From NCBI GenBank assembly GCA_031763025.1, contig JASSKH010000001.1, positions 18,329,142 to 18,393,141 of the forward strand: 64,000 bases of DNA, in the 5' to 3' direction. The notes beneath the pieces are model-generated. The model had not been told where the DNA came from, made no database searches, and saw only the letters and a list, made by a program, of their open reading frames with translations. Positions within the stretch are counted from its first letter, which is position 1. The number at the start of each line of letters is the position of its first letter. A program made the translations under genes and the position numbers. Shown here piece by piece: positions 2,719-48,000 of the stretch. The stretch comes from Macrocystis pyrifera. Its lineage: Eukaryota; Sar; Phaeophyceae; Laminariales; Laminariaceae.

Positions 2719-2850
2719 AGTGCCTTATAGGGGTGGTGCCTTATTTTGTGAGGTCGATGTCTCACACGAGAAGCTCAGTTTCTCGCCCGAAACATGACTT
2801 CGAAGAGCTTCGTTCGCGCAACCCGACCAACGTTTCGAAGCGTTTGTGGT
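2719..2850 (+). repeat. Dispersed repeat D, copy 1
   Basis: Starts with AGTGCCTTATAGGGGTGG and contains the shared block CATGACTTCGAAG followed by a CAACCCGA-type end. Related copies lie at 13132-13265 (same strand, inside the ankyrin gene 2 intron) and at 30664-30784 (reverse strand). No coding capacity or clear terminal repeats were seen. It may be a fragment of a larger transposon. Confidence 0.6.
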
Positions 2851-4780
2851 ACCTGGTATACGCTAGTAGAAATATCATACCAACAGGTAGTTGAGGAGCC
2901 TAACCGGCCAGGAAATATCAAGCTAACAAGTGGTATAATACCCTTTCTGTGGGATGAATCACCTAGCATGTCTCCTACGGGAAACAAAATCAGTCGAATG
3001 AAAAAAAAAGGAATATATCACCAATTTTAGGCCTACAAGTTATTCGATCGTAACGGCCGTGAAGCGGGGAGATACAATAAAATGAGCTTCCTAGGTATGT
3101 ATCGGACTCGTGTGCAATAATACGTCTGCTACAGTGCTGCAGCAAGGCTGCTGATGCTGTGTTGACTGCTGCTGTGGTCTGTGGGGTGTTGTCGCTACTA
3201 CTCCGCAGAGGCAGCACTTCTGTGGCCTGCGTGCTAATGCTGCAGCTACTCAATGAAGGCTCAGTAGGGCAGCTAGAGAATGGCGGGATACACATAATTT
3301 TGTGTGAACATGTCACACCTCCAACATCAGAAGGAGAAAGAGGGAAAGCGCGACAAGACACGGGAAGGCAAAGTCGAAGGGTGGGAGGAACTGCAAACCC
3401 TGTGGATATGTTGTACGCTTGCGACGCAGGAGGTGTTGTTTCACGGTGCTGAGGATGATGACGGTGATCGAGAGGGTGTACGCGGCGTCCGGGCGAACAA
3501 TGTCATAGGCGCGAAGACGGAAATTTTATGCCAGCGGAAGAAAGGCGTCAGGGAGGTGCTGCTCACTCTTTCTTGCTGCAGTCTGCCAGGTGGGAAGACA
3601 GGCATGCATGCGGGTGTGTGGACTCGTCTAGAAACAACAATCTCGGTGGCGAAGGGCCCGATCATTCTTTCGGTTGTATAAACTGTCTGAAAACCGGATG
3701 ACCGCCCCATTGTGCGGTTAGTGAAAGCCGAGGTACTCGAAGCTCTGCTGTTCAGGGGCGTGAAGTAGAACCCGGGCAAAGCTCACGGACATTGGACATG
3801 TTGGACTGATGCGTGCCTGTACTTGGCTCTGTCCCTGTGACCGCTTATCACAAAGCAATTATGAACTGTACGCCTGGTGTTTCGCTTCGCGCGCAAGTCA
3901 CTGCTGCCGATGAAGTTGATTTTGTGACCATCGCAGGATTCACGCCCCTCCGCTTCGCGCGAAGATCAGTCACGCATGACACGATTCACGATCCACGTAC
4001 GTATTGGGAACGGCCGCACTACCAAGCGATTGCCATGAGCTGGCTTTGATTTTTACATACAGTAATGTAGTCATCTGCGAGACCTTCGAACACAATATCC
4101 AGGAGGTCATCATCGCTGATCATTTCTCAGAGAGTCCCCAGTTCGGGCTCAACCGGTGCACAACCAACGGCAGCACGAGCACATTCTGTTAAAGCTTGGT
4201 TATCAAAGATTGTTGTTGCCCTCGATGGAATGCATTCGAGCGCTGTTCTCAGTTTGCTTTTTTTTTTTCGTGAAGTCGCAGGTGGAGTTGATGCGAGTGA
4301 CGAGAGAGACCAGTGGGCATCGGCACAGACGGCACCCATGCAGACGGAGTTTGGCTCAGACTGAGCGTCTGCGTGCTGGCTATCGGTATTACTCGTGGTC
4401 GTATTTCATTGAGATAATCGATTTTAGCAGTACTAAGTGCATTACTTGAGCGATGCGCGTCACAGCGCAGAAACCTTTGGTACAACTACTACTACCTGTC
4501 GCACGAGCTTGTCTCTGTCTAGGATAAGGCATGGACCCTGACGTCCTGGATGTTCACGGATGGAAATAGCATTTAGTGTCAAGGACACAGATCTACACCG
4601 TATACCAGGCGGTGTCTGGTCCCAGGTAGCCCTATTATTGTTTACCGCGTGAAATGAAACACAAGTAATTGCACATACACAACAATTCGATACTCGTACG
4701 AGTAGGCGAGAAGAGGAAAGCGCATGGCTGGAGCTGCTGCACACCACCCTATGACTACAATGCGAGGGTTGGAAGTTGCA

Positions 4781-5603: not shown

Positions 5604-5625
5604 ACAGACAGACAGACAGACAGAA
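5604..5625. repeat. (CAGA)n microsatellite
   Basis: About five uninterrupted CAGA units. Confidence 0.85.
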
Positions 5626-8150: not shown

Positions 8151-8359
8151 TGGCCGCAGCGATGTACAACATCCTGCTTGTTGTACTCGTAGCACGCTCA
8201 ATACGATATCTGTGCTCAGCAGCAGTTGTAACGGCACTGTTGGCCAATCACGGCCATTTTGCAAGTCATACTGTAAGTCATAGTAGCTCTGCTTTGATTG
8301 GTGCAAGCTCGAAAAGTCTAGTCTGTTTTTACGTTGTTTTTTGCTTGTAAATATCTCTT

Positions 8360-9890
8360 GGCCCAGTGCCTGTCTCCTCTCATGTACCAGGTAATAATTT
8401 TATGCCTGATTGGAACCCGGTTCTCACCGGTCAGAAAGAAAAAAAAAACGAACAGCAGAGCTTCCCTCTTAGCCATGTACGCCGCCCGCCCGTCTCGCGA
8501 CCACCTCACCACCGATTGGGTCCGGATAAAGTTTTCCTCCCTCTCTGCCACAGTGAGCGTCGTCGCCGGCCTCGCGTGAAGCCCGGTGCTCACTGTGGCC
8601 CTTCTTCGCCACTTCGACAAAGTTGGTGCTCAAACTGCATTATGGTGTTTGCGAAGTTCCGATTATAATTGGGTTTGGCGTATTTCTATTCTTCCGATCC
8701 CAAAAAATAATCAACTTCCCAAAATAAGGACCCAAAATCGGCTCATATGGGCCATATCTTCATAAAATTTTCGGGTTGGGTTTGGCTTCTTGGGGTTTCG
8801 ATTATGATATAGCTTCATTGGCCAGGACAACCCGGAGATGCCCCGGGCGAATGAAACATCGTATTTGGCAAGAAATCATAATCATCTACGTCACGTGCTC
8901 ATACGCACAGCGTAGCCCAGCCATGAGGAGGGAGGCATGATACATGGGTTGCCTCACACCACCAAGCTATATCTAACCGAGCGCACGGCCCATGTGGCGA
9001 GGCCGTATCAACGCGAGGCCCTCGCGAAGACCGGCAAAGTCATGCGGCCATATGCGGCGGAGGGCTGGCAGGATGCAGCGTCAACATCGTTGACGGCGCC
9101 CTGTGCGCTGTGGACTGCTTCGGAAGTTGTTGCTCTGCTGTGCTGCTTGTTCTTGATGCGGCAACACAGTAGCGGTACTCAGGGCTCTGGCGCGTGTTAC
9201 CGCACCACACGCACACCCACACACAGCACACCTACGCACGCACTGCACAACGGGCTTCGGTTGCATCGATTGGCACTCTTCGCATGGCTGCCATAGAGCA
9301 CAGAGCACACACACACGCAGCGAGCCATGCAGCAGCAGCAGCAGCAGCGAGCCGCATCTCCCACGAAGCCGTTGGTGTTCCAATTTTCGTACTTTTATTT
9401 CGTTATTTGTCATTTGTTGCTGTATTCCATTTTCCTAGAATATTATTTCCAGTTCAAAACCGAAATGATCGCTTTGGATTCTCGCAATCACTTTCAAACC
9501 CGATTCTGTTTTGGTTTGGTGAATAGCCTGTGGTTCTCGACCCAACCATAATCGGTTATTTCGCAAATACTCTATTGAAGTCTCTTTGAAGTTTAGTTTG
9601 GTCGCAAAAATAAGAACTGCTTAAATATTATTTCGCATATCAAAACGACCCTTATATCTCGTATATGGTGCAAGCGGAGCCTCACAAGGAGAGGCCAGAC
9701 AGAGTCCATTCATTCGTGCTTCCTGCGTGTCTCGAGACACACGCGACGCCTAGCCATGCAAACGGCGACGGCGCTCCTTGCAACACCCCCTCTACCTGCT
9801 AGCACCCGCTGACACCCGCGGCGGCGCCGGGCTCGCCCGCGGTACCGTGTTCTGACTATACGCACGCGCACGAAACGAAATAAAAAGGCT
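8360..9890 (+). repeat. Dispersed repeat A, copy 1, interrupted by a 926-bp insertion
   Basis: 8360-8640 and 9580-9890 match 23710-23975 and 23990-24290 in order and orientation. Shared blocks include TGCCTGATTGGAAC, AACAGCAGAGCTTC, TTTGGTCGCAAAAATAAG and ACGCGACGCCTAGCCA. The second copy is continuous, so bases 8645-9570 are an insertion into this copy. No function was recognised; short frames in it are probably non-coding. Confidence 0.75.
8645..9570. mobile_element. 926-bp non-autonomous inverted-repeat element
   Basis: The left end GTGTTTGCGAAG...CCGATTATAATTGGGT matches the reverse complement of the right end GTATTTGCGAAA...CCGATTATGGTTGGGT over about 30 bp with mismatches. It interrupts dispersed repeat A exactly where the copy at 23710-24290 is continuous. 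The interior has no transposase-like frame. A target-site duplication could not be assigned with confidence, so the superfamily is open. Confidence 0.7.
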
Positions 9891-10027
9891 TCAGATTATA
9901 TATAAGCAACGATTGACTCGTACCTGGTACGTTCGTTTGAACACGAGTACACAGTACAAGAAGGCGCTTCTATTGACGAACGTAGTGTTTGTTCGAAAAT
10001 ATAAGCTGTACCGGGACATTGTTTGTT

Positions 10028-10329: not shown

Positions 10330-11894
10330 TAATTTCGCTGCTAGATAAACCCTAGGGGAAATAAACAAAGCATTTGCTCGTTGCGCAGATATTTTTTTTT
10401 TATCGTTTACTATCTGAGCATCGTGGTCACACACCGCAGGATGCAACTACAATGGGAGCGGCACCACGTTCTACACAGCGTCAACTGTGCCCAGTGACTC
10501 AGCCCTTACCGCTTGGAAGCTCAAGCCAGAGTTTCGAGATTTGGAGCGGAGCATGGCCTAATTTCAGCTGACACCGACAACGACCTCCGGCAATTCCTCG
10601 TGGTCAGCGCCAGCTCGAACGCACCACTAACGCATGCCGACAACCAAATGACAAATCGCCAACCCCTTCTCATCGTCACGCAGCACAAAAACGACGACCT
10701 CGCTTGACCCAAAACGAGCGCTCGTTTATTTCGTCAAAACATGGTGGAACAGGAGAAACTAAGGCTGGCCGGCCACGGTACAGCCCAAGAGGCACGATGA
10801 GTCACTCCACACACCTCTGGTCAACAAACAAGGCAGTGTACAATCGATTAATGGTGTTGGGAGTGGACAGATTACCGCGGCAGCGACAGGGGCCTCCCTC
10901 GACCACCTAAGAATACATTACGGGACACCTACTACTGTAAGTACAATGTTAATACAACTAATACAAACAAATCCAGACTGAGATTTACAAGGAACATTAG
11001 AAAATCAGGGGTCTTTGTACTGACGTAGGGCACACCACTTCCCAGAGAGAAAAGAGAAAAAGCCAGAGCCAGCATTCCTGTTTGTTGCTACTGTAGGTGT
11101 GCTGTACGCCTTTTTTCCCGCCTATTCTACAATAAATACCACAACGCGAAAAAGCGAAACTCTTATCTCTTATACCGATATACCTGGTACTTGAAGTAAA
11201 CTTGACCTATGACGTAAAAAAACTCCCCAGGTATCTCAACAGTAGTCGATGCTCGAGAATTCCTGATACCAAAAGAATGGATGGCGCGTCGAAAGTGCAA
11301 GGGCCCCCCGCCGGCAGCCGCGCTAACAACGCCAACGGAAAACCCAAACTAAAGAGCACTCCAAAACCGCAGATGCACAATGAGCGCGAAAGTCGGAGCG
11401 CCGCTCTCTCCCGGAAAAATCGTGCTTCGGCTGAAAAGGACTAGTGTCAAAACACACCAGGCACTCACGGAAAAGTATCAGATGCCTTACCTGAGCAACG
11501 CAAAACATTCAACATGAGTAACACAAACATACAATGTTGCGTGCGATGCAACTAAAAGCACGAACGCTTGCGTGGAGCAGGCAGAGAAGGTGGATGCACT
11601 GCGCGTGTCTAGGAAATTCCTAAAACAATTCTCCCAAGAGGATAAGACGGACCCTGATTGTCAGCTTTGCCTGAAATACCAACCCACGGTGCCATTGAAC
11701 GCCGCCAAATATCCCCGGAATCGCCGTGGATAGCATCCAAGATGCAACAACAGCTGGCGACACACCATCCCCCGAAAAGGGCTGTCCTTTTCAAGCGCGA
11801 CTCGTGAAACATGAACATGCAGCGAATGATACTACTGTATTAAGTGCCTGCCTGGAAGAACATAGTATGATGGTTGGATGTTCAAGTTGCCGTC

Positions 11895-19360: not shown

Positions 19361-19459
19361 CGGGGGACCATAGTAAGTAGGACCACATATTGTTAGTAAA
19401 AATAAGGAAATATAAAGGTTTTTGTGTCTACCGTATGTCCTATTCACTATGGTCCCCCG
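19361..19459. mobile_element. MITE-A, full copy 1
   Basis: A 99-bp element with inverted ends CGGGGGACCATAGTAAGTAG and the reverse complement of CTATGGTCCCCCG. It is flanked by TA on both sides, as expected for a Tc1/mariner-type TA target. The AT-rich core is shared with the copies at 28555, 35304, 52092 and 62011. Confidence 0.85.
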
Positions 19460-23709: not shown

Positions 23710-24290
23710 ATCCCCGTCCCCTCTCATGCAATAATTTTCTGCCTGATTGGAACACCTTGCACCGGTCAAAAAAGAAAAAAACCGAACAGCAGAGCTTCTC
23801 TCTCAGCCTCGTACGCCGCCCACCCCTCTCGCGACCACCTCGCCACCGATTCGGTCCGGGTAAAGCTTTCCTCACTCTCTAAAACAGTGAGCCCCATCAC
23901 CCGCGTCGCGTTAAGCCCGGTGCTCACCGTGGCCCTCGTTCGCCAGCTCGACATTGTTGTTGCTCAGGCTGCGTAGCTCTCTCTGTGAAGATCAGCTTGG
24001 TCGCAAAAATAAGCACCGCTTGAATGTTATGTTGCAATTTCGAACGACCCTTGCAGATTCATAGATACTCTATCCTAAATCGCAGATGGAGGCCAGACAG
24101 AGCTCATTCATGCTTCCCTCGTGTCTCGAGGCACACGCGACGCCTAGCCACGAAAACGGCGGCCGCGCTCCTTGCAACCCCCGCTCTACCCGCCAACACT
24201 CGCTGAAACCCGCGACGGCGCCGGGCTCGTCCGCGGTGCCGTGCTCCGAGTACACGCACGCGCACGAAGCGAAAGAAGAAAAAGGAAAAA
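23710..24290 (+). repeat. Dispersed repeat A, copy 2 (uninterrupted)
   Basis: Matches 8360-8640 plus 9580-9890 and lacks the 926-bp element between them. It also lacks the TACCAGGT present at 8395-8402: here the text reads CTCATGC then AATAATTTT. It serves as the empty-site reference for both differences. Confidence 0.75.
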
Positions 24291-24772
24291 AGAAACCGAA
24301 AGTGCCAAAAAAAATGGAGAAAACAAAGAACCGCTGGAAAGGTCCGGCAAGTAATCGAAGGAGGCGTTGTCCAAGTGGGAGCTCTGAGAGGCCAGAAATG
24401 TACCAACCGAGCATGCTCAGAGAGTGAGATATCTGTAAGAAGTTCTATATATACTGCTGTATCAGCATCGTCAAGTCTGGTAGGAGAAGTGCACCCGACC
24501 ATGGGGGGTGTTCACGTGCTCACGTTTCGAAGCTGGGAATTGGTCATATACCCTGACCGAACGAACGCAGCTGGTGTGTACGTACTAAGATATCGTATAC
24601 CTGGTACGAGTATAGAGCAGCAAGTAAGCAGCACTTACACCAAAACAGCAGCAGCAAGTTGATTTAGTTTCACTACGTATGTTTTCGAAGTTGGGCCGCC
24701 TTGTGTGTTGGTTAAGGTATTACCTACTGAGCTTGTATGAGGGAGTAAATGGTCGATCGATTCCCCAGCCCT

Positions 24773-27670: not shown

Positions 27671-30600
27671 ATGGAGTTTTTTCCACCACCATGGAAGGCA
27701 TGGCTGGAACGGGATAGTCAGACACACCAACAGAGGCAGGGTGCGCCGCCAGATCTGGATCAGCTGCCAGAAGCGACATCGTAAGCCTTCACGGCGTTAC
27801 TACCTCCGTTATTCATGGCGGGACGTCGTGCAGCGATCGGTGCATTCGCCTACGGTGAGCTAAGTACTTCACTGTGCTGTTTCCATGTACGTGTATCGAG
27901 CAGTCGTGATGCTGTTGTGTACCAGGTATAGGGTTAGGGATCCAGCAACGCACGCATGTCCTGGAGCAGAGGTCATGATCAGTACGGCGGCTGGCGGCCG
28001 CCCTTGCTTGACATTGATATTGGCCAGCCCGTTACCACCCCCCTATGTATCAATAAAGGGCCTACATACCGGACAGAAGTAGTTTCTTGATATTTAATCT
28101 ACTTGTGTTACTCTTGATGACCTTGTACGAAACTGTAGTTACTTTGTGCCAGGTATTAATAGTAGTCTGCCGTAAATATGCAACACACAGGTACTGGCAT
28201 TAGGTACATACAACACCTGGTAAGCAATTACCCGTGGGTACTATTAATATTAATATCTCAAGAACACGGGTCTATGGGGTGCATCTGGTCCGTATCACAT
28301 TCAGCTATTATTCGTAGTCATCTCGTGTCTATATAGCAGACGCGCGATGACCACGGCCTTCTCTCTCGCGTCTCGGCTGTGGGTATCAACGGTTAAATTA
28401 AACACATATTTGGCCATGTATAAACGGCTGAACAGCGCACGGTCCTATCCAAACACCATACTCGCACCTGGCGCGAGTAAGGTGTGACCTCTTGCCTACT
28501 CCTGGACATACGCACAACACCACAGCAGACAGACGCTTGTCTCTTTTGCTATTACGGGGGACCATAGTAAGTAGGACCTACGGTAAACACAAAAACCTCA
28601 ACATTTACCGTGATTTTTCTAACAATATTTGGTCCTATCTACTATGGTCCCCCGTAATAGTAAGCATCACGTGATCTCGTCGTTTTGTGTGCGTTAAGCA
28701 GGTAAGGCTCTGTGGCCCTCTGGGGCTGCGACACGAGCATGGCGAGCATGCTCACATGCTAGCGTGCATTCTAGAGGGCCGGCATTGACGGCCGTCCCCT
28801 CGACCTTCAGCCGCAGCCGCAGGCAGAAGAGAGTTGAGCTTTTCCTTCCCGGGCCCGCGCAAGCTTGAGGACATTACCAATCTTCCGCTCCTAGAAAAGG
28901 TCAGGACCGTTTGTGGGTCATGAGCCGACCTATCCGTGGGTCAGGTCAGGAAGTGTTCGAAACCCCTCTGGTCGGGTCGGATCGGGTCAAACGGTTTTCA
29001 AATCTCGCGGTTCGGGTCAGGTCGGGTCAAGAGTTTTTTCGAATATCATGGGTCGGGTCGGGTCAAGAGTTTTCTAATCTCATGGGTCAGGTCGGGTCAG
29101 ATCAAGAGGTGATGAACAGCACACGGTTCGGGTCAGATCATGACCCACGAGAAACGGGTCTCTCGCGGGTCGGGCCAGAATGACCCGCGAGTTGGTTTCT
29201 GCTGACCCGTGGGTCGGACCCGCGCATCCGGCCCGCGTATCCGACACTTCTAAATCTTCCCCCGTTCTGCCCTGGGGATTGTACCGTACCAGCACTGATG
29301 CATACTTCTTTGCTGTCATCTTCAAACAATGGAACACCCCCAGATCTATATACGCATACGCATACATGTCAGCATCCATCCATACCCACAGCAGAAGGCC
29401 ACGTATCATTTGTGGGGTGCAAAAATGAAGATTAATTCGTTTTCGACGTATCGAATCACGGGCCGGATCCGCGGGTCGAACCCGCCGGTCGAGAGAAATG
29501 GTCTCAGGTTGAAATTGACCCCACCCGCAACGTGACCTGTATCTCACGGGTCAATCTGAATCTGTCGGGTCGGGTCGGTTCGGGTCATGAGGTGTCCGAA
29601 ATATCACGGGCTAGGTCGGGTCGAGTCCAGAGGGTTTAAATCTCACCGGTCGGGTCGGGTCGGGTCGGGTCGGGATACTCCGAAAATCTCGCGAGTCGGT
29701 TCGGGTTAGCGACCAACCTGACCCGCGAGGTTTGACCTGAGCCGCCAACAGCCCTGTAAAAGGTGACCAATTTCGGTGTTAATGGTGTTGTTAGTCATTG
29801 TTGTTGTTGTTGGTTGTTGCTGTTGGTGTTGTTGGTTTGTTGTTGTTGGTTGTTGCTGTTGCTGTTGCTGTTGTTGGTTGTTGATGTTGTTATCGTTGCC
29901 GTCATCGTTGTTGACATTGCTGCTGTTGCTTACCAGGTATCTGTGTTTGTTTGTTGTTGATGATGTTTTACGGGGTTGCGCCAACCACAATGACGTATTG
30001 GTTGATGTGTGTAGCAAGTAACAGAGTAACAGGCTCCCCTTCCTGCAGCAAATGGGCGCGTCGGCTGTCGTATCAATAGACTCGTCGTGTGCGAGTAGCT
30101 GTAGACTTCGTCTGCTGCACCTGGTACCGGTACGTGTCAACCCCTTCGGAACTGCACCTACAGCAAAAACCAATGTGTCCCAAAGTTATAAGGACCGCCT
30201 GCATGTTAATATTCACTCCACACTTGCCCTATATTTCGGCAGGGAGTGTTGCCCGGTACTACTGTACCAGGTACGTATTTGTGAACAAACTACCTGAATA
30301 AATGGCAGTGCGTGATGTGTTTCCCACCACGAGTAGTCAAAGTGCGACAGCGATAGAGCCTCGCACGGAAGCGTCGATGTCGGAATGCCGCGCCGTCATC
30401 GCTGGGTGCTGCACCTGCTGTATTCGTCCGCTGAATTTGCAATTATGAGGGACACTTCCCTTCTAATAGAGCGGTGCCCTCCTCCCTTGGGCACTGCTAC
30501 GGCAGCAGCGGTACTTTTTGCCTTCTGAGGCAGTATTGTCTGCCCGGTTGAGCTCCCCCAGCGAGCATCCATTAGTATACCGGCTATTAATAGCACGATA

Positions 30601-33600
30601 TTTTTACTGGTATCCTTGTTTTGGAGCTACCAGGTATGCCATAGCGCATACAGTATACATGTTGGTTGGGTTGAGTGGACAAATTTCTTCGAAGCCATGT
30701 TCCGGGTGAGACATTGAGCTCCTCACCACCCTTAGTTGGCACCACCCCTACCCTTACTAGGCGCCACCCCTATAAGGCACTGCTCCCTTTGTGGTGGGCA
30801 TCCTTGGAGTCGGGCGAGACGTACGGGCACAGCAGCGTGCCTTTCGCTGGTCCTCCTCTCCAAGGCCGACCAATCCCAACGCGCACAGTTGAACCGCGTT
30901 CACTCATGCGTACTCGTTGGTGTTGGATATCGTGTCGACAGTCTGATAATATCGATAGGTCAGTCTGATAATATCGAAATATCGAACTTTTGATATACGT
31001 GTAGTATCGAACGTGTGTTGCCCTCCCCCCCCCCCCCCATCCCCGTGCATGCAGGAAATGAACGAATGCTTCAATCTATCGTATAGACAAGCACACTCGC
31101 TGAATCCTGCTGCTTCAGGTTTTGTCTTCCTCATATACGGACTGTATACACTGCATGAGGGAGGCCATATACAACCGGTGGTTCGCGTGATCGAAGTATC
31201 ACTAGGATAGTATCACACACACCTTGCGAAGACGAGTTTCGGCCAAATCCTCGGTCTCACAGCTGCTGTTGTTTTTTTTTATATAAATAGTTAAGATCGT
31301 ATCGATTTGTTTTTATTGTTTATCGGTATCGTTCGATCTCCAACACTAATATTCATACTATTACCTAACACTCTGGTGCGGAAACGTAATTGTCGTTCGG
31401 GTACTTCCTTCAGGCTATATTCACGGGGGGGGGGGGGGAGGGGGCACAAGCTTCAGAGCCGCCGGGAGAAAAACGTTACACAAATGGCGGCATGGTTAAT
31501 GGACATCATTAATTTTCTAGGTACCAATTGCCCCCAGTTCGCAAGTTCAATCCCCAAAGGATCAAACGGTCCCACATTTCCGGAGATGGTGGTTGAGCAA
31601 GTAACCAAGTTTGGTTTTACGCTCTGTCCGTAAGGGCCCATCTTATCGAGGACTTTCGGTTCTTTCAATTTGACTTGACTTTTTTTTTCTAATTTAATTT
31701 GCATCTGATTGAACGAAATTTAGTGTTCCCCGTTAAGATGGGCTCTAACTTCAAGGACTGTTCGGGTTTCATATTCCTTATGTTTCGGGAGAGAGGGTTG
31801 GTGTGAGTGGTGCGAGGTACCGCAAGGATCTTACCTCAGATATACTTGTCCACAACACTACCGGGTTGTCGCCTGCTTGATGCCGTTACTCACGCCGTTA
31901 CGCGAACCCTTCCGGGGTGGAACACCCTAACCTCCAGTACCGCTATGCTCCGTGTACCGTGATGCTGCCATGGTATTGTTTGCCGAATGTCGGTTCTCTG
32001 TTGCGTTCCGACGATGCGACGTGAGGGCGAAGGAGGCCTACGGAGAACATGAGCAGACGTTCGGACGGCCTACCACGATACTTTGCTCGATGCCATGTAC
32101 CACGCCAGCTGCCGACGGCTCGGGCATGGAACACCCTAAGCTCCGTTACGGCTGCTCTCCGCGTGTTAATGCCGCCATGATAACATTGTCTATCGTTCGA
32201 CTGTTGTTTTTGTTCGCGGGGATGCGACGTGCGCGCGAAGGAGCCTGCGGAGAACATATCAGACATCTGGACGGCCTACCACGACCAGCGAGCAGACTCC
32301 CTAGGAACGGTCATACCTGGAGATTCCCTGGTCGATCTAAGAAAGAAGGCGAAGAAATGGTGGGCTATAAATAAATTGGGAGTACGTAACACGCCTTAAA
32401 GAGGGTTGACTCCGCACCACGGGGGTTGTGCGATCGCTTTTCAGCGCTTGGTTTTCCGGAAGGGGAAGGTTAAGGTTGCCAATAATACCGAACAGCCAAT
32501 ACCGAATAACAAGGTGTTTTCGGGGGGAAAAACTGGTCGAGAGAGAGCCTTCGGAAAAGACAACATATTGACTTTTAAGGATTCTTACCGTTCTTGAAGA
32601 TAACGCTACCAATGTGATACCGCCGAAAAAACGATCGCACCCACCCCTGTGCGATCTCTATCGCTCTTTACGGTAGTATCGCCTCGTTCCTCTAGAAACC
32701 TGCCCGGTATTTTGCCGAAGATCAACAACTCGTTTGGGCTTGCTGGTCGCCATTCTGCCGTTTCGCCGTTGACCTTCCCATCTCTGGAAATGTACGGCAT
32801 TCGTGGCCTGCATTCAGCACGGCACATGCTGTGGTGCGCTCTCGTGGCGCGATCCCCCGAGTGACTGTCCACGTTAGCTCGGGCGCGTGGGCCGCGTCAT
32901 GCCTGGCAAGCTGCTGGTATGGACATAGCCACGCCACAACAACAAAATGGTCGAGACTCTTGAATTTCCGCGACGTCAATCATACACAACAGCGATAAAT
33001 GAAGTCACGTGCTGCAGCGGGGAGGGAGGAGGGACCGAGTGCCATCTACGTGACCCAATGCAATGGTCGATCTGAGACACGAGAGGGAGGGCGAATAAAA
33101 TAGCTGGGATGGGGGAAAAAATACAAGCAGCGTGTTTGCCTTTTTTTGGTGTGTTGTAAATGCAGCGGTAGTTTTCCACACGTATGTTGGACAGTGCCGT
33201 ACCCGGCAGGTTGTTAACGCGGTGGTGCGTAGTTTTATTTGCCCTCCCTGCTTGCTGGTACGCGTGCAACGTGTAGCACTGCGGGTGCCTAGCGGGCGAA
33301 TTGCGAGCGGAGTGTTTTTTGCAAGCAGAGACCGCAACAAGGAGAATATAGCAGTATCTCGAAATGAAGTGTGTTTTGCTGTTAGTTTAGGTTAGGTTTT
33401 GATTTTTCTTGTTTGTTCTTGTTGGTTCCGTTATATTTGTTTTTTGTAGCCCAATGATGAAACCGGCACGGCCTTACAGCGGCTACATGTCTGCACTGCC
33501 ACCTCCCTTCCCCCTCTCTCCCCCGCGCGCGCTCTGGCCTCTACATCGGCAGCCCTTTGTTTATCCTCCCTGTCTGGCGAGATGAGGGGCACTTCATGAT

Positions 33601-36600
33601 GATATCACAATTCCAAGACACGTGCTTCCTGCTCACGTACCTTGAGGTAAGAGTGCAACATATGAATATATCTGCACTGCTTCCACTACTGCGAAGACGG
33701 CATTGGGCATCGGGCATGCACGCGGTGCCTTGCTCTCCGGGTAGCGCGAGGGGATGCAAAGGCAGTACCAGGCTCGCTTGTAACCCATCGCTAATTTATG
33801 CTCATGCTACTTCGCCGGAGGTCGTTACGTGCGCGCTTCGCGCTTCTAGCATGCCGAGTGTCGAGGCCAGAAAAGCTCGGGAGGCTGAGATTATTATCAT
33901 GAGGGGCTATTAATTATCTCGTTACACCGTCTCCTCGAAGCAACCAATACCTGGTATATTTTAGTGTATATTTTCGACCATTCTTGTTGTCTTACTACAG
34001 TATTCGCCGTTGCGTAAATGTCTTCGTATCGGTCATACTGTTTTCCGACAACGGACTTATCAAGCGGAAGGGTGCCAGGGGTGTGTCAATAGGAATGCGT
34101 CAGTTGAGGAGAACTGGGAGCTTCAGCAAGGTGCTACCTCTCTGTCTGGAATGTAGGGATGGTTCATGTATACAGATGAAAATAAGCCGTTCTTTATATT
34201 TCCGGACAGAGTAGGATACACATATGTTTTGTTGTAACCATCACTTTTTGTTTCTACACTAGCTCTGTGGACAAACCAAGCCGTGGTCACAGGTTTCTGC
34301 CCTTGTCCCCCCCGGTACAGTAATGCCTCCATTCTTATCGCGCAGAGGGTTATTCACGGCATTCATTCCCGCTGCTCGTCGATTTGCATCGAGTTTTGCT
34401 AACTCACGCTCTCGCGCGTTCCGCGATGAGAAAACAAACTACTTTTACTTGGTACTACTGTAGAGCCGTTACCTTGCGACTACCTGTACACCAGGTCATA
34501 GATCCCAAGCGGGACGGTGCAAGAGGAGAGTGCCGATACGAGCTGAATCAATTGCTGTCCCCTCCCTCTTATGCTGCAGGACTACAAGGTCAACCCAGAG
34601 GGTGCTCAGCCGTACGCTACGGTCTCCGTGTACGGGGACCTGGTGGAGAGTAAAGGGCTGGGGTTGATACGAGCGGATATCACCCCGAACCTGACCAAGA
34701 AGGTGAGGAGGGGACGCGTTGCTACTGTACGATACACCACGGGGGTAGTATGGGCCAAAATATTTCTGACTTTTGTTTTTTACCGTCTCCTCAAGCTAGG
34801 ACCTATCTATGTGGCACTCTGGGTGGAGTGTAGGGACCGTTTAAACACTAATTCAATACCAAGTAGTCTTTATATTTGCGACCAGAGTGGCGAGACACAT
34901 GTATGTCGTTGGAATCCCGAATGTGTTTGGCAATAAGGCGTGCCTTGTATGTCTAAGCTCGATGTGGCCGGGGATACTGGAGGCATCCCCTTCAGGTGAA
35001 GTCACTTGTTCGTAACAACCACTGTGGACGGAAATATAAATACCGTTTATGCATTAGTAGCAACACCAAACGTTACACATCTCGGACAGGTCAGTGATTC
35101 CCGCTTCGTGATCTAGATCTTTCAAGACAGATCTATTCGCGATCTTGTATGATCTAGCTCATGTCACCGGATGGGAGCAGTATATTTTGCATGATCTAGC
35201 ACATGTCTCCTGGGTTGGATATTGGGGTACCCTCTCACTTATTTTCCATGTTAGACTTTTGCTGATTTACTACAGTAGTAGTAATAATACCTTACTAGTA
35301 CTACGGGGGACCATGGTTAATAGGACCTACGGTACACACAAACACCCATATATTTCTACATTTTTACTAACAAAATTTGGTCCTATTTACTATGGCCCCC
35401 TGTAATACGATAGAGCTCGTCACGCGAGGGGCCTCGGATTTAATTAGGTGCAAGCGTTAAGGGCCCATCTTATCGAGGACTTTCGGTTCTTTCAATTTGA
35501 CTTTATTTCTTTTTTCTAATTTAAGTCAAGGGCCCATCTTATCGAGGACTTTCGGTTCTTTCAATTTAACTTGATTTTTTTCTTCTAGTTTAATTTGGTC
35601 CTGATTGAACGAAATTTAGCGTTCCCCGTTAAGATGGGCTCTAAGGGGTCCCGCCCCTCTAGGAGTGTAGTATCTAGCAGGAACACCAACTGGCCCGACT
35701 GGCTCAGCAATTTTCATTTTTTGTACAAGATCGTCAGCTGTGGCAGTGGTCGTCTGTCGTTGCAGGCTGCATGTGATAAATGGCAAATCGGTTGCGCGTA
35801 CGGGACTACGTAGGGAGCATGCCCTCGTGAAATATATAGGTTGTGGATTGGACAGGCGGTGCTTTGGTATTCTGGCCTGATTCCGCCGCGGTGCCACCCT
35901 GTGTCAGTAACGCTTAATTTCATGTTTCGTGCGCATTGCTGGGGCATTTGGTGCCGGTAGCACGTGTTTTGGTGTTCGTTACTTGGTTGCCTAGCTGAAG
36001 TAGGAGAGCGCACCAGGCCCACAGGATAGTACGGTATGGCTCTAAGTGTTGGTGTCATGTCTGCTCATCAATAGTTAAGAGAGGGCGAGCAACAGCAATG
36101 CACCCGACACTACCCCCCAAATCCTATCCCCCCTCCCCCCCAACCCCCCCCCCCCCCCCTTGCCGGCGTACAGATACAGCTGTAGGTGACTGCGCTGGAT
36201 GTGTGTAGTACAACAACAATGACAGATGGATTTTTATTCAAACGTAATGGTTGATGTATTATTCATACCAAACAATGGTCGATGTTTCAAATGCCACAAA
36301 ATGTTTGATGAATTAAATGGTTCATGTATTACATCCAACAACAACGGTTGATGTTTTCAATGCAACAAGGGTTGATGTCTTATATGCAGCACTAATTGTG
36401 TCATGTATATAATGCAAAAAACAATGGTTCATGTATCAGATGCAAGAACAATGGCAACAATAATGGTTGATGCGTCAAATGCGTCGTCTGTAAACCGTTG
36501 CCCTTGTTCTTGCCTTCGTTCCGGATGTCCGAATGAAATCGATCGGTGCCTACCTTGCAGGAGGTGGACAGGCTAATTCGGTTGCTCATTCGGTTTTACT

Positions 36601-37025: not shown

Positions 37026-38405
37026 GGCGGGGTTGGTGATTGAGTCGGGTACGACGTGGGCGAATCGTGTCTATCGACCGAGGGTGCAAGCATGATTGCT
37101 GGGGGAGCTGGCATCATCCCCACAAAAAAAAAAAAAAAACTCAATTTGATTTGCGAGCAGCGCCGAGGATGGATTTGTCTGCGGTGTTTACACGTTGGCC
37201 AGCGCCCCGTTTTCCGGCGGACTTGTAAGAAGCCAACGGCTAGCTGAGCTAGACGACGGCTAGCTGAGCTAGTCAAGGTGTTAAACAGCAGTGTACCTGG
37301 TATGCCCAAACTGGGCGCTCGCCTCGTCTTGCTGAAACTCGTAGTGTAACCATCCCGCGCAAACTACCATCTCCTCCGCCCAGCAGCACGGACTGGACCT
37401 AGATGCTGCAATCGTCGTTTTTCGGTCTCTACTCGCGTCTGATTTATTTCCCCACAGGGTAAAGCTGAGGCCATCAGTCGTCCGCAGCGCTGGTCACATC
37501 TGCTCCCTACCCCCCATTCGATCGGCACACCCTGCGGGGGCGTGAGCGCGATCTCAAATACAACTGTCAATACTCCTATCCTACGACGTATTCACACCAA
37601 AAGCGTGGTTGTGGGACGCGTCTGATCCCCTCCCGTGTGGAGGTTTTGCCTGAAAGCCAAAGATGTCAGGCGTTTTTCACTCGGGGACACGCTCGTGTCC
37701 CTATACCACTACAGGGGATGATAGGATGATAGTAATCAGAACCCAAAAAGGCACTATTAATATTAGGAGGACACATGGCTTTTTGGTCCATCGTGGGCTC
37801 GGATTATCATGTCTGTTGTGTGTGCGGAGTCATAGCGCGCCTCGAAAAGCAGCCAAGTAATTTTCCTTTTGAGGTTCGACCTTGTGTCCTTCGGATCGCC
37901 TCAATTCTGATGCCGTCCACACCACACACAAGCCGACAACCAAATATGATACCAGGTATACTGCTGTATATTCACGGCGGGGATGGACGTTGACGGCTCC
38001 GGATCTCGCGCGGTTCTAGAATTCGCTTGAGGTTCTCGATTTTTTGGTAGGTCTTGAATTTAGGATTGTGCCTCCGTAACGAATAGCGCATCCGTAGGGC
38101 GCGAATATGGCCATTTTTTCGGAACCGGGGATGGTAGAGAATAATCCCCTGCCAAAGACTGCGAAACGCCTTGCGATTTTGAGGCTGCGGGTCTTGGAGA
38201 GAGATTCTCAGAATTGACCATTTTGTGGTAGCCCCGGTACTTTCTTACCCTCATCTGCGACAACATTCATCCCTGATTAGTAATCTACTGTTCATAGTAG
38301 GACCGCTACCCTGTTAATACCCTATTTACCCTGATGGGTCCATCGGACGCCAGAGAGGAAAACTGACGGTGAACATTGATGATTACAGTATTTGCCGCTG
38401 TATGG

Positions 38406-39052: not shown

Positions 39053-42000
39053 CTAAGGCTTCCTTCGAGTTAGCATCTTGAACCCCGAGTGAACCGCCAC
39101 TACTCCTGCCGTCAGGTTAGTGTGAGACACCATGCGAAACCCCGCCGATGCCATGCGTTCTTCGAGCTCGTGCTGCCTGAGCCGTCAGTGGCAATAGGGA
39201 TAGCGCGGAGGGAAAAAGGCAATAGTCGAAGGGCATCATTGAGCCTTCCACTACACAGCGTGTGCGTATTTTTGCCTAAAAATACTATCTACCTCGTAGT
39301 TCGAACATACTTGCCCCCAAAGCGCGTGATTGAGCCTTTTGCCGCAGCAATACGTACCACATACACGTGCTGCACAAAATGTCCAACTCTACTGCTGTAA
39401 TTCGAAGAATGCTCCCGAAGGTTCCGGTTGTGTACATGCTGCACTTGTCGATATGACGAAGCACGATACTGAGTCATTAACGAGACAGTATTTACTGCAC
39501 AATAACATCCAACCCTAATTAACACCCACAACCTTACGTATTTGGAGCGAAGAGAGGCACGGCAGCCTCGAAGTGACGTAAGGGCATAGGGCATAGGGGA
39601 AACCGAAAATCTCCGAAAAACAACTTCTCCGTTTTTCTGTGCCTTCCATCAGCGCACACATTTGACGAGAGCTATTACACGAATATCCAGCAGCGCGAGT
39701 TCTTACTGTAGCGAGAAAGCAATAAACCATGCCCTGCATTCATGAAGTATGCTACAACACTACGAAGCCAAGTCTAATACGCTGTACCAGGTATCAGTAC
39801 GCTATAACGGCCTATTACGTGCTACGCTATTAAGGTACACCAACATGATACGACCTTGTACTCACTCTGGGAACATTCGGATGCTCTCGACCAGGTACTG
39901 ATAAGCGTCTCTGTCATTCGCCACCACCTGTCAACGCACGTCGAGGAACAAAAAACAAGCTCGGTTATCACTCCAAGACGTTCACGAGACGTACGCGAGA
40001 AATCGATGCTTGGGTTAACCACCCCTTCGGACTTCACTTTCGATTCCATAAAAGGGAAAACCAATCTGGGGGAAACGCACACACACTTAAAGTACAGTAG
40101 AAGCCACCCGTCATATATGGCAGACGGGCTGCCCTGGGACAGGCAGGGGGTTTGTCCGAACGTAAGGAGCTGTACACGACATGTGCGCAGCAAGGCGACA
40201 CATACTATTCGTATTGCTGCTTGTAGTAACGCTTCGCCTTCTTCCTAGACCCTTGAAAACGCCACACTCGTTATTTTTTGGGTCGCTGCATGATGTAATC
40301 AAGTTAATCAAGGCAGATGGGACAAGCCCAGGCACGAGACGGCAGACCTATAGTGCGATGTGATACAGTTGGCACAAGGCGACAGAGCTACATGCGATCT
40401 CACGCCCGTTGTTTGTGCTGCTTGCATGGTGACACGTGTGCCTCCTACAAAGTAGTCTCCAACGAACCCAACGCTCGGCAACTCTTGAGGACGCTTGCTC
40501 GAGATTCGCCGACTCAAACACTGTAATATCGCCTACAAGCAAACAAAACACATACTGTTTGTTGATACTATGAATAGGAATCTCGTCTTTTTGGGAGCAT
40601 GAACATCTCTGTGGTCCTTATTATACCGGTTAAGTGTAGGGGCGGTCAGTCAAGGTGCCATCAAACCGGGGGTTTCCCCCTGCTAAATCATACCTGTATA
40701 TTGGACACAGCTTAGCACACAGAATGACACGTTACACACGTGCTACGTACAGTAGTGATACGGTCCAGGACAAATATCAATATTAACAGTGCGGTTGTCA
40801 ATGCGATATACCGGCACACCTCAGGGATCACCAGAACGATCGCCAGAACGGTCGTCGGAAAGATCCCCAGAACGATCGCAGAAGCAATCGAAGTGGCGGT
40901 GATGGTGAGCGGTAACCCAGAACACATCGCAGGGAAAGTTAAAGCCAGGGGGGCTAACCTGTCCGATGGTTGGGATGACGTTGAAGCTGTACCAGTCGTA
41001 CGCCTTCTGAAGCGGCTCGATAGGAACGTGACTGAACTCCAGACACATGAACCTGACACAGCAGTATGGAAAGAGAGCAGGCAAGGAGGACGAGTGTCTG
41101 TGTCATGAAGATGTGTCACGTGTGCAAACCCAAAGCTGGAATAAATAACCCGTATCAGGTCCAGCAGAAGGGTGCTATATAGTCAGTCAAGAAGGCGACG
41201 AAGTACGGTGGTCTGGTCTGATACATACATGCACACATCACGTTGCTGATTTTGTTGTTTTCGAAAGAATTCTCGCCATCCTATATCCGCGGTCACAAGA
41301 TAATGCTTCAAGAATTCTGGAGTAGAGAAAAACAAAAACAGAAAAACAAAAGAAACAGAAAAAACCTACAGCAGTAGTAGTATCAATAGTACCAAAGTAT
41401 GAGGTACCAAGTATGCCTGGTACCAGGTACGTTTTTTCGCCGATTTGAAACCATAACATCGAAGACGTTCTGGCGAGGAAAGCTGAACTTACGGTAGACC
41501 CCAAGTGCCGCACTAACGCCATACATATATAGGGCAGACAAAATAACCATCGTAAAACAAACACCACTCTGTCCCAAAGTACAAGGGCCGTGCACATGCT
41601 ACTGTACTAAATCTGGATTTCTTAAGTGGAAGAAAGCAAATTCCTGGATGGCTGATTTTCTTATGGGACGCTTTCTTAATCAATTCCAAGGGGAAAATGT
41701 GCGAAGATGCGGTAGAGAGTGAGCAGAGGGAGGGTCAGCCAGACACAGACAGACGAACGGACAGACAGGTTTAGAGATTTGCTCGAAGAGATTCTACATA
41801 GTGGGAATACTATAATACCATGTCCCTGCATATTTGTACCGTGCAGATGGTATTATTACTACTAATAGTATGTCATACAAACGCACTTTATATTGAGGTC
41901 CAAAGGGGTAAGCCGTGCTACGATGGGGGTTGCACAATTAAGTACTTTCCGATTAAGACTGCAGCCCCGTATGGGGATAAAGTTACTTAGAATTAGAGTG

Positions 42001-45000
42001 GTTTATCCCTAGAGTAAAACGGGACTGCAGTGCGAAAAGGGTTAACGCAACAAGTTATTACAGCAGTAGACACGTAGCCAACGGACTTGTGTACAAGGCG
42101 TGTACTATTTTCATCTATCGTACCGTAGGTCGGTTGTTGGGTGCTACATCCTACGGAAGATAGAGAGCTCCCCAAGTCATGAGCCTCACAAAATTCAGAC
42201 CATTTCTACCCCTATAACGGCATGGATCACCCTCTCGAGATGCTTCGCCTGGGGCCCCAACACTACACTTAGCTACAGTTAGCTTAGGATGGAATAAGCC
42301 GCATGCCTTATAGAAAAACCAGCAAGGGCGCTCGGCGCCAGTACATACGCCGGCCGGGTGAGTGACCGACAGCACGGTAGAGCACGGGGGAATATACTGT
42401 AGAACCTGGAGTTGGTAGCTCTAGATGTGGGGTGGCCATGGCATTCATGGTGTTCTTTTGTCTTACGCTAGGAAAGTACGTATCTTTCTGAGGCTACTCA
42501 CTTGATTATAGTATAGGAGCTCTATATCTCCGCCAAGTTTTTTTTTCAAGAAAAAACGAACGCTCAACGTCGGCTTATCGTTGAACAAAAAATGGGATCA
42601 CCGATATTGAGTACTTCCCCAGTGCCCTTGAGGAACCTCCTCAGCCACAAAAGTTTTTTTGGGGGGGAAAATGCTGCTGATTGGACTGCGCTTCGAATCG
42701 TACCGTTACAAATAAGGTTATGACGTGTGGGATGCAATTAGCCACAAATTAGAGCTTAGCGGGTTGCACATCTTCGTACATATAGAAAAAAACGATAATA
42801 AATGGCATCAGAAATTGTGTCACGACAACCGGACCATCTGGGGTGTAATTAGCGGATACGGAGCACTGTAAAACAAAACAAAACAAGACAAAAACGGTGT
42901 CTGACCTTCCACCTGGCTTGAGCACGCGATGCGCCTCTCGGAGAGCCTTGTCAATCTGGAACCAACACGTAATGAAGGAAGTCACAGAGAGGATAATCAC
43001 AGGAGGAGAGGTCAAGACAGGCATCAAGACAGCAAATGCTAACACGGTAGACCTATCGACGAGAAGCCTAGACGGCGTACGCTGTTTCGGCGATACCACC
43101 CGTCGGGAACAAGGGGCCAATCATGAGTAAGGGGACGGGTGCTTGATAGTTTTGTCAGGCCAATTTTACCATCAAGATGAGCATATACTTGATAGTACAA
43201 GCTCTCAACCCTTTGAGAAGTGTATCTGCGGTTTTGGGTACAGATTACAGTACTTCGATTATGGATGGGACTATTTGTTTGCGTAGTTAAAAGGGTTCCT
43301 AGCCATCAGCAACAACTGTCGGCACACGGAAGGAAACTATATCAGAACAAAAGGTTGCCATGACCATGAAAAAACCAAGCGCAGCAGAAAATCGTGCCCC
43401 CCCAAAACAACCGAGCGGACATGGGCCGAGCCTGCATCCGGAGCAACAAAAGAAAAGGTCCCCCTGTGTCCACGGAGTTGTGGGCAACTACGCCAACAGC
43501 TGACGGAGTGGCGCGCCATGGCAATGTAATTAAATACCTGGTACGAAGTTTTGAAGAACGCTCAGCTCGGGGTGCTAGGTTTTGGTATTAGCTGAGAACT
43601 TCAAGGCATGCGTTGATGGGAGGGGGGGGTCGAAAGCTACTTATTGGCTGTAGTGCCGGTTACGACAGTACCGGTTACACGGAAGCGGCCTAATCATGAG
43701 TACACTCAGGAGGTAGGGGGTGTGCCCGAGCTAGCAACGCAAGGAGACCCTCGGCACGCACGCGGCATGCTCATGCTAACAAAGAATAGGGCGTGAATCG
43801 GAGCCGATTCGCCCAACTAACCCGAGCGATTTAAACCAGCATCGAAATCGGCAAAATCGGGATGATTTGTTTCGCCGGAAAAACATCGGTAAACCATCGG
43901 TAAAACATCGTTCCGCTTGGCATGACTATGTATGGATTCACTCATATTTACAACAAAACGAGGAGGATTCATTCACACGTTAGATTCGCCGATACCTCGG
44001 GTATACCGTCTGCGCCGAAAACGGAGGTTTACAATATCGGTAAACACAACCGATTCACAGCCCTGATAATAGGCGGTTGATAACACCGCACCTCACATAG
44101 TGTGGGTGGCTATGCTATTTACCAAGCCCCCCCATCGCAGTGCCACGCAGCGCCAAAACAAAGACAACAGCATGCGCGACAGCTGCTCACATTTGTAACG
44201 TTCCGCAAACCGAAGGCAATGGTGTAGACATGGAAGGAGTCGTCTTCGAAGGGCAAAGCCTCTGCATCAGCCTGGCCAAGCCGCCGGAACGAAACCGTCA
44301 AGACGAAACCGTCAGGATGAAACCGTCAAGACGGAGCCGCCAGGACGAAACCGCCAAGACGAAACCGCAAGAACACGAAACCGTCAAGACGGAACCGCCA
44401 GGAGTAAGCCGCCAGGGTGAAACGACCAGGACGAAACCGCCAGGAATGAAACCGCCGAGACGAAACCGTCATAGACCGGTTGTGCCGACACCACGACACC
44501 GACGGGGGGTCAAGTCAACCGCACGAGAAAAACAGCAGCGGCAAACAAGAAGGGTGCAGGCAAGCGGTGGTCAGCAAACGTGGAGCATCCACAGCAGTCA
44601 ATAGTCCGCCTGAAAATCCCCAACGGGTTACGTTTGGCCAGTAAGACTGCGGGAGGAAAAAAAAAAGTTTGAAAACAATGTCCGACTGCTATTCCGCGCA
44701 CGCGGCATCGCGCCCTGTCGGCAGTCTTTGTGTAGAGTTCTCGCCAGTGCATGCGGAAAATTCTCGCACATTTACGTGCTCGTATATACTGGGTTGTGCG
44801 TCTTTTTGGATTGCCAGCTTCACGGTCAGAGCTGCACGGTTAGAGCTCTGCCACGGCCTACGGCAGGCATTGGGGTTGCACTTGATCAATCGTATATCCC
44901 AACAATTTCTCACTGACGGAGCTCCTCAACCATTGCATTAACCATAGCATCAGCCATCGCAACTCTCAAACTCCCCAATACTTACCACTCGAGAAAATAA

Positions 45001-48000
45001 AATCGTTTGGATTTCATGGTACAACAAGAGCATCCCTCACGTACGTCTCTTATCATTACGGATAGAGTGGCCATATCTTTCGATCCGATCTTCTATTTTT
45101 TTTTCAATACTCGTATCTAGCCTGCGGGGGTTTTGGTCTTGTACCGGGCTTAGCACTTTCATGTTCTTCTCAAAATCGGTTGTTGGGTGCTGCTGCTGTA
45201 CAAGTGCTCCGCAAGTGAGGATCTTCAGAAAATTTAGGTGCTACTGTATACATCCATCAGTCGCAAGGGTCGTTAGAGCCAAGGCAGGCAAGATAGGCAA
45301 GGTTAGGGCTTAGCTCTTGGTGCAGAGCTCTAGCTTCGCTCTTCTTCACACCCGTTGACATCCAACACTATACCTCGTATACTATTAAATATGTACGATA
45401 CTTTGTGTACTATACATACTCTGACCGGCACGACAAGCTTTGACGAGCTTTGCGCGTTCCATGATTGCATACCTGGTACTTGGTACAGTGTATACAAGGT
45501 AAATACTCATAATTGGTCCGTGGGCAAGGTCTACGCGCCCCCACCATTCATGACCACACGTACACCATTCGACGCCAGTCGACGAGGGAAGAAAGTGCTG
45601 AACCTTTCTCGCGACAAAAATGCCTTCCAAGGCACGTACTCGTACCATACTTGGGGGGGGGGGGGGGGAGAGTATCTACTCTATATCGTGACCGCGGATC
45701 TGAGTCACTCGTAGGGAGGTAGCAGGAGAAACAGAAGGGCGAAAACGATGAATGGGATACAAAATAGTATTAAAAAAAAAAAACGGGAACATATCAATAA
45801 TAGGTCCTTGGGCAACGTCTACGCTACGCATGACGACATATATCGACCAGTTCTGACGTTATTTATTAATAGCAGTTTGTCCGTTGATCGATGTATTACT
45901 CACCTGCACGAATCGCATCGAATCTAACGTTTCCGTTGGAAACCTGTCGGCTGCCCGCTGCTTCCCGACCTGCGTAAAAAAATCACGTAAACATGGAAGG
46001 CCCCGGTTCGGTTCACACGCGTGTAAGCAAGACGCTTGTTACCACCGCCGACATGATCCAACTTTAAATAATACCACTATCTCTCGCGATGTAAGGACTT
46101 TACGGATTATACTGAGGCCGTGTTTTCTGCGCAGCACGTCTACGCATTTTATACCGTACCTCCAGCATATCCGGGTTGATATCGCTGACTGTAAGCAGAG
46201 GCAAGCGGTCGCCCGCCCCCTCCTCGAGCTCATCCCCCTCGTCCACTGTCCCCCTGGACCCGTCGATGTAGGGTCGCAGCTGGTCGGCCATTCTGTTACG
46301 GATGCAGCAGTACATCGTTATTGGGTGTACTGGGGGGGAGGGGTTACGGAGAACACTGCGCACAACTGCGGATATATACGGCCGACAGTACAGCATCAGC
46401 ATCAGCACTAGCATCAGCACTAGCATCAGCACAACCCTACTCGCTATGTGGGGTGAACACACACCAGGTACTGTACCTGATATTTCTTACATAGATGTGG
46501 TATGTGGTATGTGGTATGTGGCACCTGCCTGTGGCTATTACCGAATATCGCGTGTGATTGAGTGGTAAGAAAACACACGTGTGATATGTGGTAAGACAAC
46601 ACACGTGTGATAAGTGAAAAGATAACACACGTGTGATAAGTGATAAGATAGCACACGTGTGATATGTGGTTCGATAACACACGTGTGATAAGTGGTAATA
46701 TAACACACGTGTGGTAAGTGAAGATATAACACACACCCTGGGACGAATTTGAGAGCCGAGTGTCTCCGACACTATGGGGGAACATACACAACACAATTAA
46801 TGGCCTTAGGACGATCTCGCTCGAGATACTATTTCCATGGACACATCGCTATTGATACCTGATACCTGGAAGGCGTTTACACCCGCCCCGTTGTCGAGAA
46901 GAAATATCACCGTCGAACTTCGATTATCAACTTGGTCCGTGCTACGAACATCGGTCGAATTCACAAAAAATATCGTACACTACTACGATTTCATTACATG
47001 ACATGTAGGTACGAGTAGCAACACGCCGCGCCCGACGAATGTCATGTTTCATAGCTTGCAAAAGTTAAAGTTGGGTATCAAGCAATCAATCCGTCCACGA
47101 CTCACAGCTGACACATTTGCAAAACGGGTATAAAAATGAGCAGCGGTACGAACTCAAAACTAATACCAGGTAGTATTCATGCATTGATGTATGTTAATGG
47201 ACGTTAATATCATGCACGCTACGATCGGAGTGCACCTGTACTATTTATTATACCATTTTATGAGGCGCCTCACTTCTGGAGCTTTGTGTGTACTATAGCA
47301 TGTATGCATTTACAACACTATTTATATTACTATTTATAGTACTCTATATAATATTATCACCAAAGCTTGAAGAAAAAATGCTATTTTGTAAGCTCATCCC
47401 GATGAGCAAATCCCATGGCCTGTTGTAGGTTCAGTTTTAATATCCACAAAAACGTCCCAAAAACAGACGATACTAGGTAGCTTTTTTTCAGTTGAGAAGC
47501 TGCTCCCGACAGCCGGAGAGATGTTTCGGCCAAAACATTTTCCCCCTACTGTAGTTGAACGCGTCTGAAAAAACTAGTGCCTGGTATCACTCTCGTCGAA
47601 AATCGAAGGAACGTTTCACTCCTCAGACAGATCATTAGATCAGATAGATCATCTACTTTCTCACCTAACCCTAACCCTAACCCTTGCCCTCTAGCCCAAC
47701 GCAGAAAACATGCGCTAGACCATGCAGGTTATACGACTCCCACCCGGCAACATGAGCTAGATCATACAGATCATACACACCAGGAACATATAGGAACGTT
47801 TCACACCTCGGACACAGATCAGATAGACCATTCAGATCATGATATATCTGTAGATGATCTAGTTCCTCGCCTGCCGCTGTGAGAGGTTGTGCAGGATCTG
47901 CCTTACAGGGCAGATCCAGCCCAGGAAACATGTCCTAGATCATGCAGATTACACGGGTCCCACCCTGAAACAACATGACCTAGATCGTACAAAATCGGGG

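Follow-up and report, generated by a model that had tools for sequence, protein, structure and literature searches.

TACC[A/T]GGTA words in the giant kelp genome as probable footprints left by the excision of a TA-specific cut-and-paste transposon

Minos-type elements leave a four-base TA footprint, TACGAGTA, the ends of Mos1-like mariner elements begin with CCAGG, and pogo/Tc5-like DDE_1 transposases are kin of TA-targeting elements. The overhangs reported for Tc1/mariner elements are 2 or 3 nt long. For Sleeping Beauty and Frog Prince the footprint is described as C(A/T)GTA (PMC3878927); the footprint bases of Sleeping Beauty are given as those of its 3' overhangs (PMC7827188), and TACAGTA and TACTGTA are documented as its footprints (PMC4378557). 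The A/T centre of such footprints comes, in our reading, from the mismatch of the annealed overhangs. In rice, just the duplicated target was left in 8 of 94 excisions, most of the others being deletions or filler (PMC4423477), and non-canonical footprints are described for human Hsmar2 (PMC3770610). The brown alga Ectocarpus is described as having 17 families of Mariner-Tc1 elements with 11,912 copies, mostly non-autonomous (PMC12477816), in a main text from which the words “footprint” and “excision” are absent.

We describe here a word of similar build in the genome of the giant kelp, Macrocystis pyrifera, studied from a window of 64,000 nucleotides. The word is TACCAGGTA, with complement TACCTGGTA and general form TACC[A/T]GGTA (TACCWGGTA), hereafter called the scar. 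It resembles the TA-C(A/T)G-TA of Sleeping Beauty and Frog Prince in its TA target, its TA duplication, its near-palindromic form and its A/T centre, but differs in having five bases (CC[A/T]GG) rather than three, in a parent that was not found, and in being present about 121,000 times in a single natural genome. As in Tc1/mariner elements, TA stands on both sides after insertion (repeat families F1 and F2, the latter being repeat A, both described below) and the core is self-complementary with an A/T centre; the five-base core, in place of two or three bases, counts against that assignment. We therefore do not claim membership of Tc1/mariner, since the core exceeds the reported 2–3 bases and the parent was not found. 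The Minos-type TACGAGTA is a different word, yet it is enriched in our kelp sample and occurs at the same TA as a kelp scar (row L030). piggyBac targets TTAA and excises free of footprints, whereas the kelp target is TA and 7 bp remain; PIF/Harbinger elements make a 3-bp duplication (TNA or ANT), whereas only TA is common to both sides of the kelp scar. Given how rare clean footprints are in rice, the uniformity of the kelp scar is unusual. Among the open-licence papers listed in our searches, we found no report of this word, or of such scars in kelp. What is unusual here is the number of scars, the five-base form and the missing maker.

The window contains exactly 21 copies of TACCAGGTA or TACCTGGTA, the number given in an initial annotation made from the letters alone, against a mean of 0.40 and a maximum of 3 in 100 dinucleotide shuffles. 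Twenty of the 21 positions given there were exact; the very copy on which that annotation was centred had been misplaced to 8395 and lies at 8385..8393 (+), inside repeat A. Further scars are found on the plus strand at 27920..27928, 29931..29939, 30628..30636, 37950..37958, 39785..39793, 41421..41429, 47164..47172 and 49128..49136, the last adjoining TATTACTATG-type repeats, and on the minus strand at 2850..2858, 9921..9929, 11181..11189, 33948..33956, 37294..37302, 43535..43543, 45470..45478 and 52211..52219. A relative of the stretch around this last scar, near 49004, is without the 7 bp by local alignment; global alignment puts the gaps elsewhere. The remaining copies belong to compound scars, in which two words have one TA in common: TACCTGGTA with TACGAGTA at 24598..24612 (−; TACCTGGTACGAGTA on the plus strand), TACTGTA with TACCAGGTA at 30260..30273 (+), TACCAGGTA with TACTGTA at 52641..52654 (+), and TATTAATA with TACCTGGTA at 61343..61357 (−).

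The window yielded no tRNA genes with ARAGORN and no Rfam match at gathering scores, and its longest listed reading frame is 369 aa. Ankyrin-repeat proteins were recognized in three of the ten frames scanned (536–1396, 11895–13004 and 13691–14410, all on the minus strand). The window is also strongly enriched in runs of C or G (CCCCCCCCC, 43 observed against 0.77 expected). Long stop-free stretches hold 4 motifs in 55,494 summed bases, too rough a figure to build on, in that these stretches overlap and are mostly not shown to be genes; in coding sequence, a scar, as a 7-bp insertion, would shift the frame.

Counted against background, the over-representation proposed in the initial annotation extends to the whole genome. 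In 537,376,219 bases on 223 contigs the word occurs 60,665 + 60,614 = 121,279 times on the two strands, and the reversed, uncomplemented control word 1,239 + 1,182 = 2,421 times, making the word about 50-fold commoner. The window and 20 further stretches of its contig, 263,141 bases in total, served as a sample; this has 74 copies, with 2.08 expected under a third-order Markov model of the sample, a 35.6-fold excess. Such numbers might also arise if the word belonged permanently to a large repeat family, for example as an element end or a satellite unit, and were counted anew with every copy of that family. Certain copies are indeed repeated along with larger repeats (on contig C1, a spacing of about 400 bp between two words on the same strand is met five times), so that the number of independent events is somewhat below 121,279. 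In the sample, however, all 74 copies have different pairs of 10-base flanks and thus are not passengers of larger repeats, and the consensus around the word ends at a purine before it, a pyrimidine after it and some A/T richness. We therefore consider a repeat-family origin of the word very improbable.

The state of the sites before insertion can be read from families of repeat copies. Families F1 (from L014:4718-4930) and F2 (repeat A) were picked because one copy has the motif; family F3 (window 51134–51450) was not picked for the motif. Copies were taken from the top of the similarity ranking, for F3 partly by length, and the F1 and F2 tallies of 41 rows each were recounted from the row lists, with a partial row of 95 bases in F1 (L130) included. 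The repeat A copy that carries the scar spans 8340..8640 (+); 40 matches to it were scored genome-wide out of 2,171 first-look candidates, the other 39 being 91–94% identical. A second copy in the window, at 23730..23972 (+), is without the scar; immediately before it, near 23727, the site reads CATGCAATAA, which is the empty state with TA changed to CA. The motif-plus and motif-minus copies contrasted in the initial annotation are thus real, and their pairwise alignment shows a clean 7-bp gap. Across the family the word is absent from the same place in most copies and was not simply lost by deletion from one of them.

In fact, the alignments of F1 and F2 reveal, at three sites in the two families, an exact 7-bp insertion at a pre-existing TA, the added sequence being CC[A/T]GG plus one TA. 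At the F2 site (TGTAAT), the uninserted TA is intact in 30 of 41 rows (26 with CATGTAATAA and 4 with a nearby substitution), and two rows, the window and L101, carry TACCAGGTA and read CATGTACCAGGTAATAA; other products at this TA are TACTGGTA (L050), TACCGGTA (L092) and TATGTA (L052). At the first F1 site (GATAC), 26 of 41 rows have the uninserted TA, 20 of these as GAGATACAAG, and two (L014, L032) have TACCTGGTA; here the other products are TACTGGTA (L116 and L128), TACGAGTA (L030) and TACTCGTA (L111). At the second F1 site (CGTAT), the uninserted TA is present in 29 of 41 rows (26 as CACGTATGCA), TACCAGGTA in two (L121, L127) and TACCAAGTA in one (L048). We note that two more rows at this site, L041 (GAACTGGTA) and L119 (GAATCAGGTA), resemble altered scar forms. 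Rows L116 and L128, like the other row pairs, may share one insertion by descent.

Plain TA is therefore the majority state and, by parsimony, would be the older one. These proportions, with the exact motif in only two rows per site, agree with the preference of the initial annotation for an insertion over an ancient regulatory site; the TA target and a transposon class were left unnamed there. Family F3 counts against the footprint reading, in that the sole family not chosen for the motif has no exact scar among 20 fetched copies. In a wider census of 388 indels, TA was the commonest duplicated dinucleotide (41, followed by TT with 27), with few events per word. Four F1 and F3 copies (L034, L039, L074, L076) have 4-base insertions, CTCG or TTCG, directly 5' of TA, which may represent a further kind of scar whose left TA is incomplete.

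The five-base core is self-complementary apart from its centre, and this centre is A or T at 121,279 of 133,388 sites genome-wide, with G or C (TACC[C/G]GGTA) at the other 12,109. On the plus strand of the sample the centre is A in 36 cases, T in 38 and G/C in 3, so that A and T are about equal. Target preference is also evident in the sample: R-TA-Y stands on both sides of 66% of the 74 scars, against 36% of all 15,188 TAs. The base 5' of the scar TA is G in 35 of 73 cases and A in 21, and TA alone is common to both sides. R-TA-Y is similarly frequent in CCGG words (67% of 15), and is found in 20% of 121 C(A/T)G words and 16% of 58 TTAA words. Given these opposite leanings, the various TA words seem to come from different makers.

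Several other TA-X-TA words are enriched in the same sample: TACAGTA (121 observed, 48.9 expected), TACGAGTA (46, 11.7), TATTAATA (58, 6.7), TACAGCAGTA (29, 1.7) and TACCGGTA (15, 3.5). We infer that the kelp copies of TACAGTA and TACTGTA are footprints. A further word, TAGGACCTA (33 observed, 1.0 expected), was set aside, as its letters sit inside an abundant MITE-like repeat. Common in the sample is a MITE-like repeat, about 105 bp long, whose ends read TTACGGGGGACCATAGTA and are bordered by TA (window 19359–19461, 28550–28659 and 52090–52192), and TATTAATA may derive from the repeat of this length with ends TA-TTACGGGGGACCATAGTA. The initial annotation had proposed a tiny insertion that spreads or is left as a footprint. 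The second form gains support, and a self-spreading unit is less favoured, since the TA is duplicated, the centre is A/T, shorter related products are found at TAs that also carry the scar, and other TA-X-TA words have other target preferences.

Scars also share TAs with one another. Two scars on one TA, TACC[A/T]GGTACC[A/T]GGTA, occur at 5,620 sites genome-wide, where about 27 would be expected if the two were independent and where the backward control gives 0. Scar-end TAs are richer in other TA-X-TA words as well (e.g., CGAG at 2 of 148, against 90 of 30,238); nesting thus exceeds independent hits, and part of it is a general preference for certain TAs. Single-base neighbours of the word in the sample, the centre excluded, comprise 57 transitions against 17.2 expected and 45 transversions against 32.2. 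This excess is mainly one of transitions, as in decaying sequence, and the scars are therefore probably of varied ages. At the inner C (position 4) and G (position 7), however, single-base variants are not in excess, which is not the outcome expected of plain neutral decay and counts against the footprint reading.

These two inner bases, less variable than the outer ones, together with the near-palindromic form and strong enrichment of the word, are what might be expected if selection maintained the word at many sites as a chromatin or protein-binding motif. Such a motif would be conserved at homologous positions, but the scar is the minority state at all three repeat sites: most copies of the same repeats are without the word and a few have it as an exact 7-bp insertion. 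Its flanks are distinct, and it shares TAs with itself and with other words. Maintenance by selection is, in our view, scarcely credible.

Taken as a whole, we consider that TACC[A/T]GGTA is very probably the excision footprint of a TA-specific cut-and-paste transposon with overhangs of 4–5 nt. In the mechanism we propose, a cut-and-paste DNA transposon would enter at a TA, preferably within R-TA-Y, and duplicate it. On leaving later, it would abandon the first bases of each of its ends (CCAG or CCAGG), which would stay behind as 3' overhangs at the chromosome break. These overhangs could anneal through C:G pairing that leaves an A:A (or T:T) mismatch at the centre and then be joined, and resolution of the mismatch to A or T would convert an empty TA into TA-CC[A/T]GG-TA. 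Annealing of identical 3' overhangs (CCAG or CCAGG) with an A:A mismatch would account for an A/T centre in about equal forms, and the strong CC:GG pairing may explain the uniformity of the scars. Each scar would supply two good R-TA-Y targets, giving rise to nested scars, and long repetition of the cycle could have produced the about 121,000 scars of the giant kelp genome.

The search for the parent element gave no convincing candidate in the sample. Paired CC[A/T]GG ends gave 9 loose matches in the 263-kb sample, none of them convincing. The one examined closely, L015:8307-8390, with TACC[A/T]GG ends 82 bp apart, is not element-like, and a relative in the window is without the right-hand motif. 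No convincing TA-flanked inverted repeats with CC[A/T]GG ends were seen in the sample, and 108 places in the loci examined where TACC[A/T]GG is not followed by TA share no recurrent extension. A dispersed repeat at window 48514–48779 has facing TACCAGATRAAGTACC blocks with telomere-like CCCTAA runs inside; exact TACCAGATRAAGTACC blocks number 35 genome-wide (control, 1). This family, with its TACCAG ends, was rejected as the parent, since most of the 15 copies compared (that of the window and 14 fetched ones) also resemble one another beyond the putative ends.

Two other TA-flanked elements were encountered. One, of 2,156 bp, lies at window 20464–22619 and has inverted-repeat ends CCGGCCCTCTC[C/A]CAAGAAA. 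This end has 44 exact copies genome-wide, with runs on contig C189 (near 2.14–2.25, 15.89–16.02 and 24.39–24.60 Mb) in which copies are mostly 21–25 kb apart, as though they belonged to some large repeated unit. Of three frames scanned in the element, two have no Pfam match at E 1 and the third a weak match to Cnd2 (0.086), giving no sign of a transposase. None of the 44 end copies has the CCNGG form, so this element was rejected as the parent; at most it could explain TACCGGTA. The other, L027:6111-7009, is 899 bp long, flanked by TA and bounded by the perfect inverted repeat CTTCCTCTGTCTCATAAGTCTG, and is probably a non-autonomous DNA transposon.

Profile searches for transposases were also carried out. 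An element that starts with CCAG or CCAGG, as Mos1-like mariners do, would give the kelp footprint if its overhang were 4–5 nt, but the overhangs reported for Tc1/mariner are 2 or 3 nt, and Transposase_1 had no match in the kelp genome, nor in any of 14 control genomes. DDE_3 likewise gave no match in the kelp genome, with positive controls in 3 of 14 genomes. In contrast, pogo-type DDE_1 gave 39 matches, 28 of them without a stop inside the match, and two scanned DDE_1 proteins also have a Tc5-type DNA-binding match below cut-off. These pogo/Tc5-like genes share the genome with the scar, but terminal repeats could not be made out within 3.5 kb and, consequently, none of the genes could be tied to CC[A/T]GG. 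DDE_1 segments on contigs C162 (L145, L070, L146) and C194 (L147, L071, L148) are 96.4–97.3% identical in two long blocks over about 10 kb; the match reaches the edges of the fetched sequence, so that the element edge is not seen. The C194 copy lies about 12 kb from the contig end.

The sample thus has 74 scars and no recognized maker. This, like the striking uniformity of the scars, would fit a micro-insertion without excision, in which cut TAs receive CC[A/T]GG plus TA directly from a transposase or a repair enzyme, for instance by aborted single-end insertion, a full element never having been present. But the TA duplication, the target preference and the shorter related products fit transposon excision followed by end joining, and other TA-X-TA words are enriched alongside, among them C(A/T)G, which is on record as the footprint of Sleeping Beauty. 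We therefore regard micro-insertion as improbable and retain the excision footprint as our reading. The missing maker could be a long-lived low-copy family, an extinct family, or one whose ends were missed by our tests. It is quite possible, although we put this forward tentatively, that an undescribed lineage of TA-specific transposases with 4–5-nt staggered cuts wrote the more than 100,000 scars, and that its own copies are now rare or have vanished, leaving the scars as its main record.

If this is true, a cut-and-paste transposon almost invisible to repeat annotation would nevertheless have altered the giant kelp genome at more than 100,000 places. Scars with unique flanks and a known direction, insertion at TA, would then allow excision events to be counted across evolutionary time, normally a difficult task. 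With the word as a query, the parent element can also be sought, as can traces of the same history in other kelps and brown algae.
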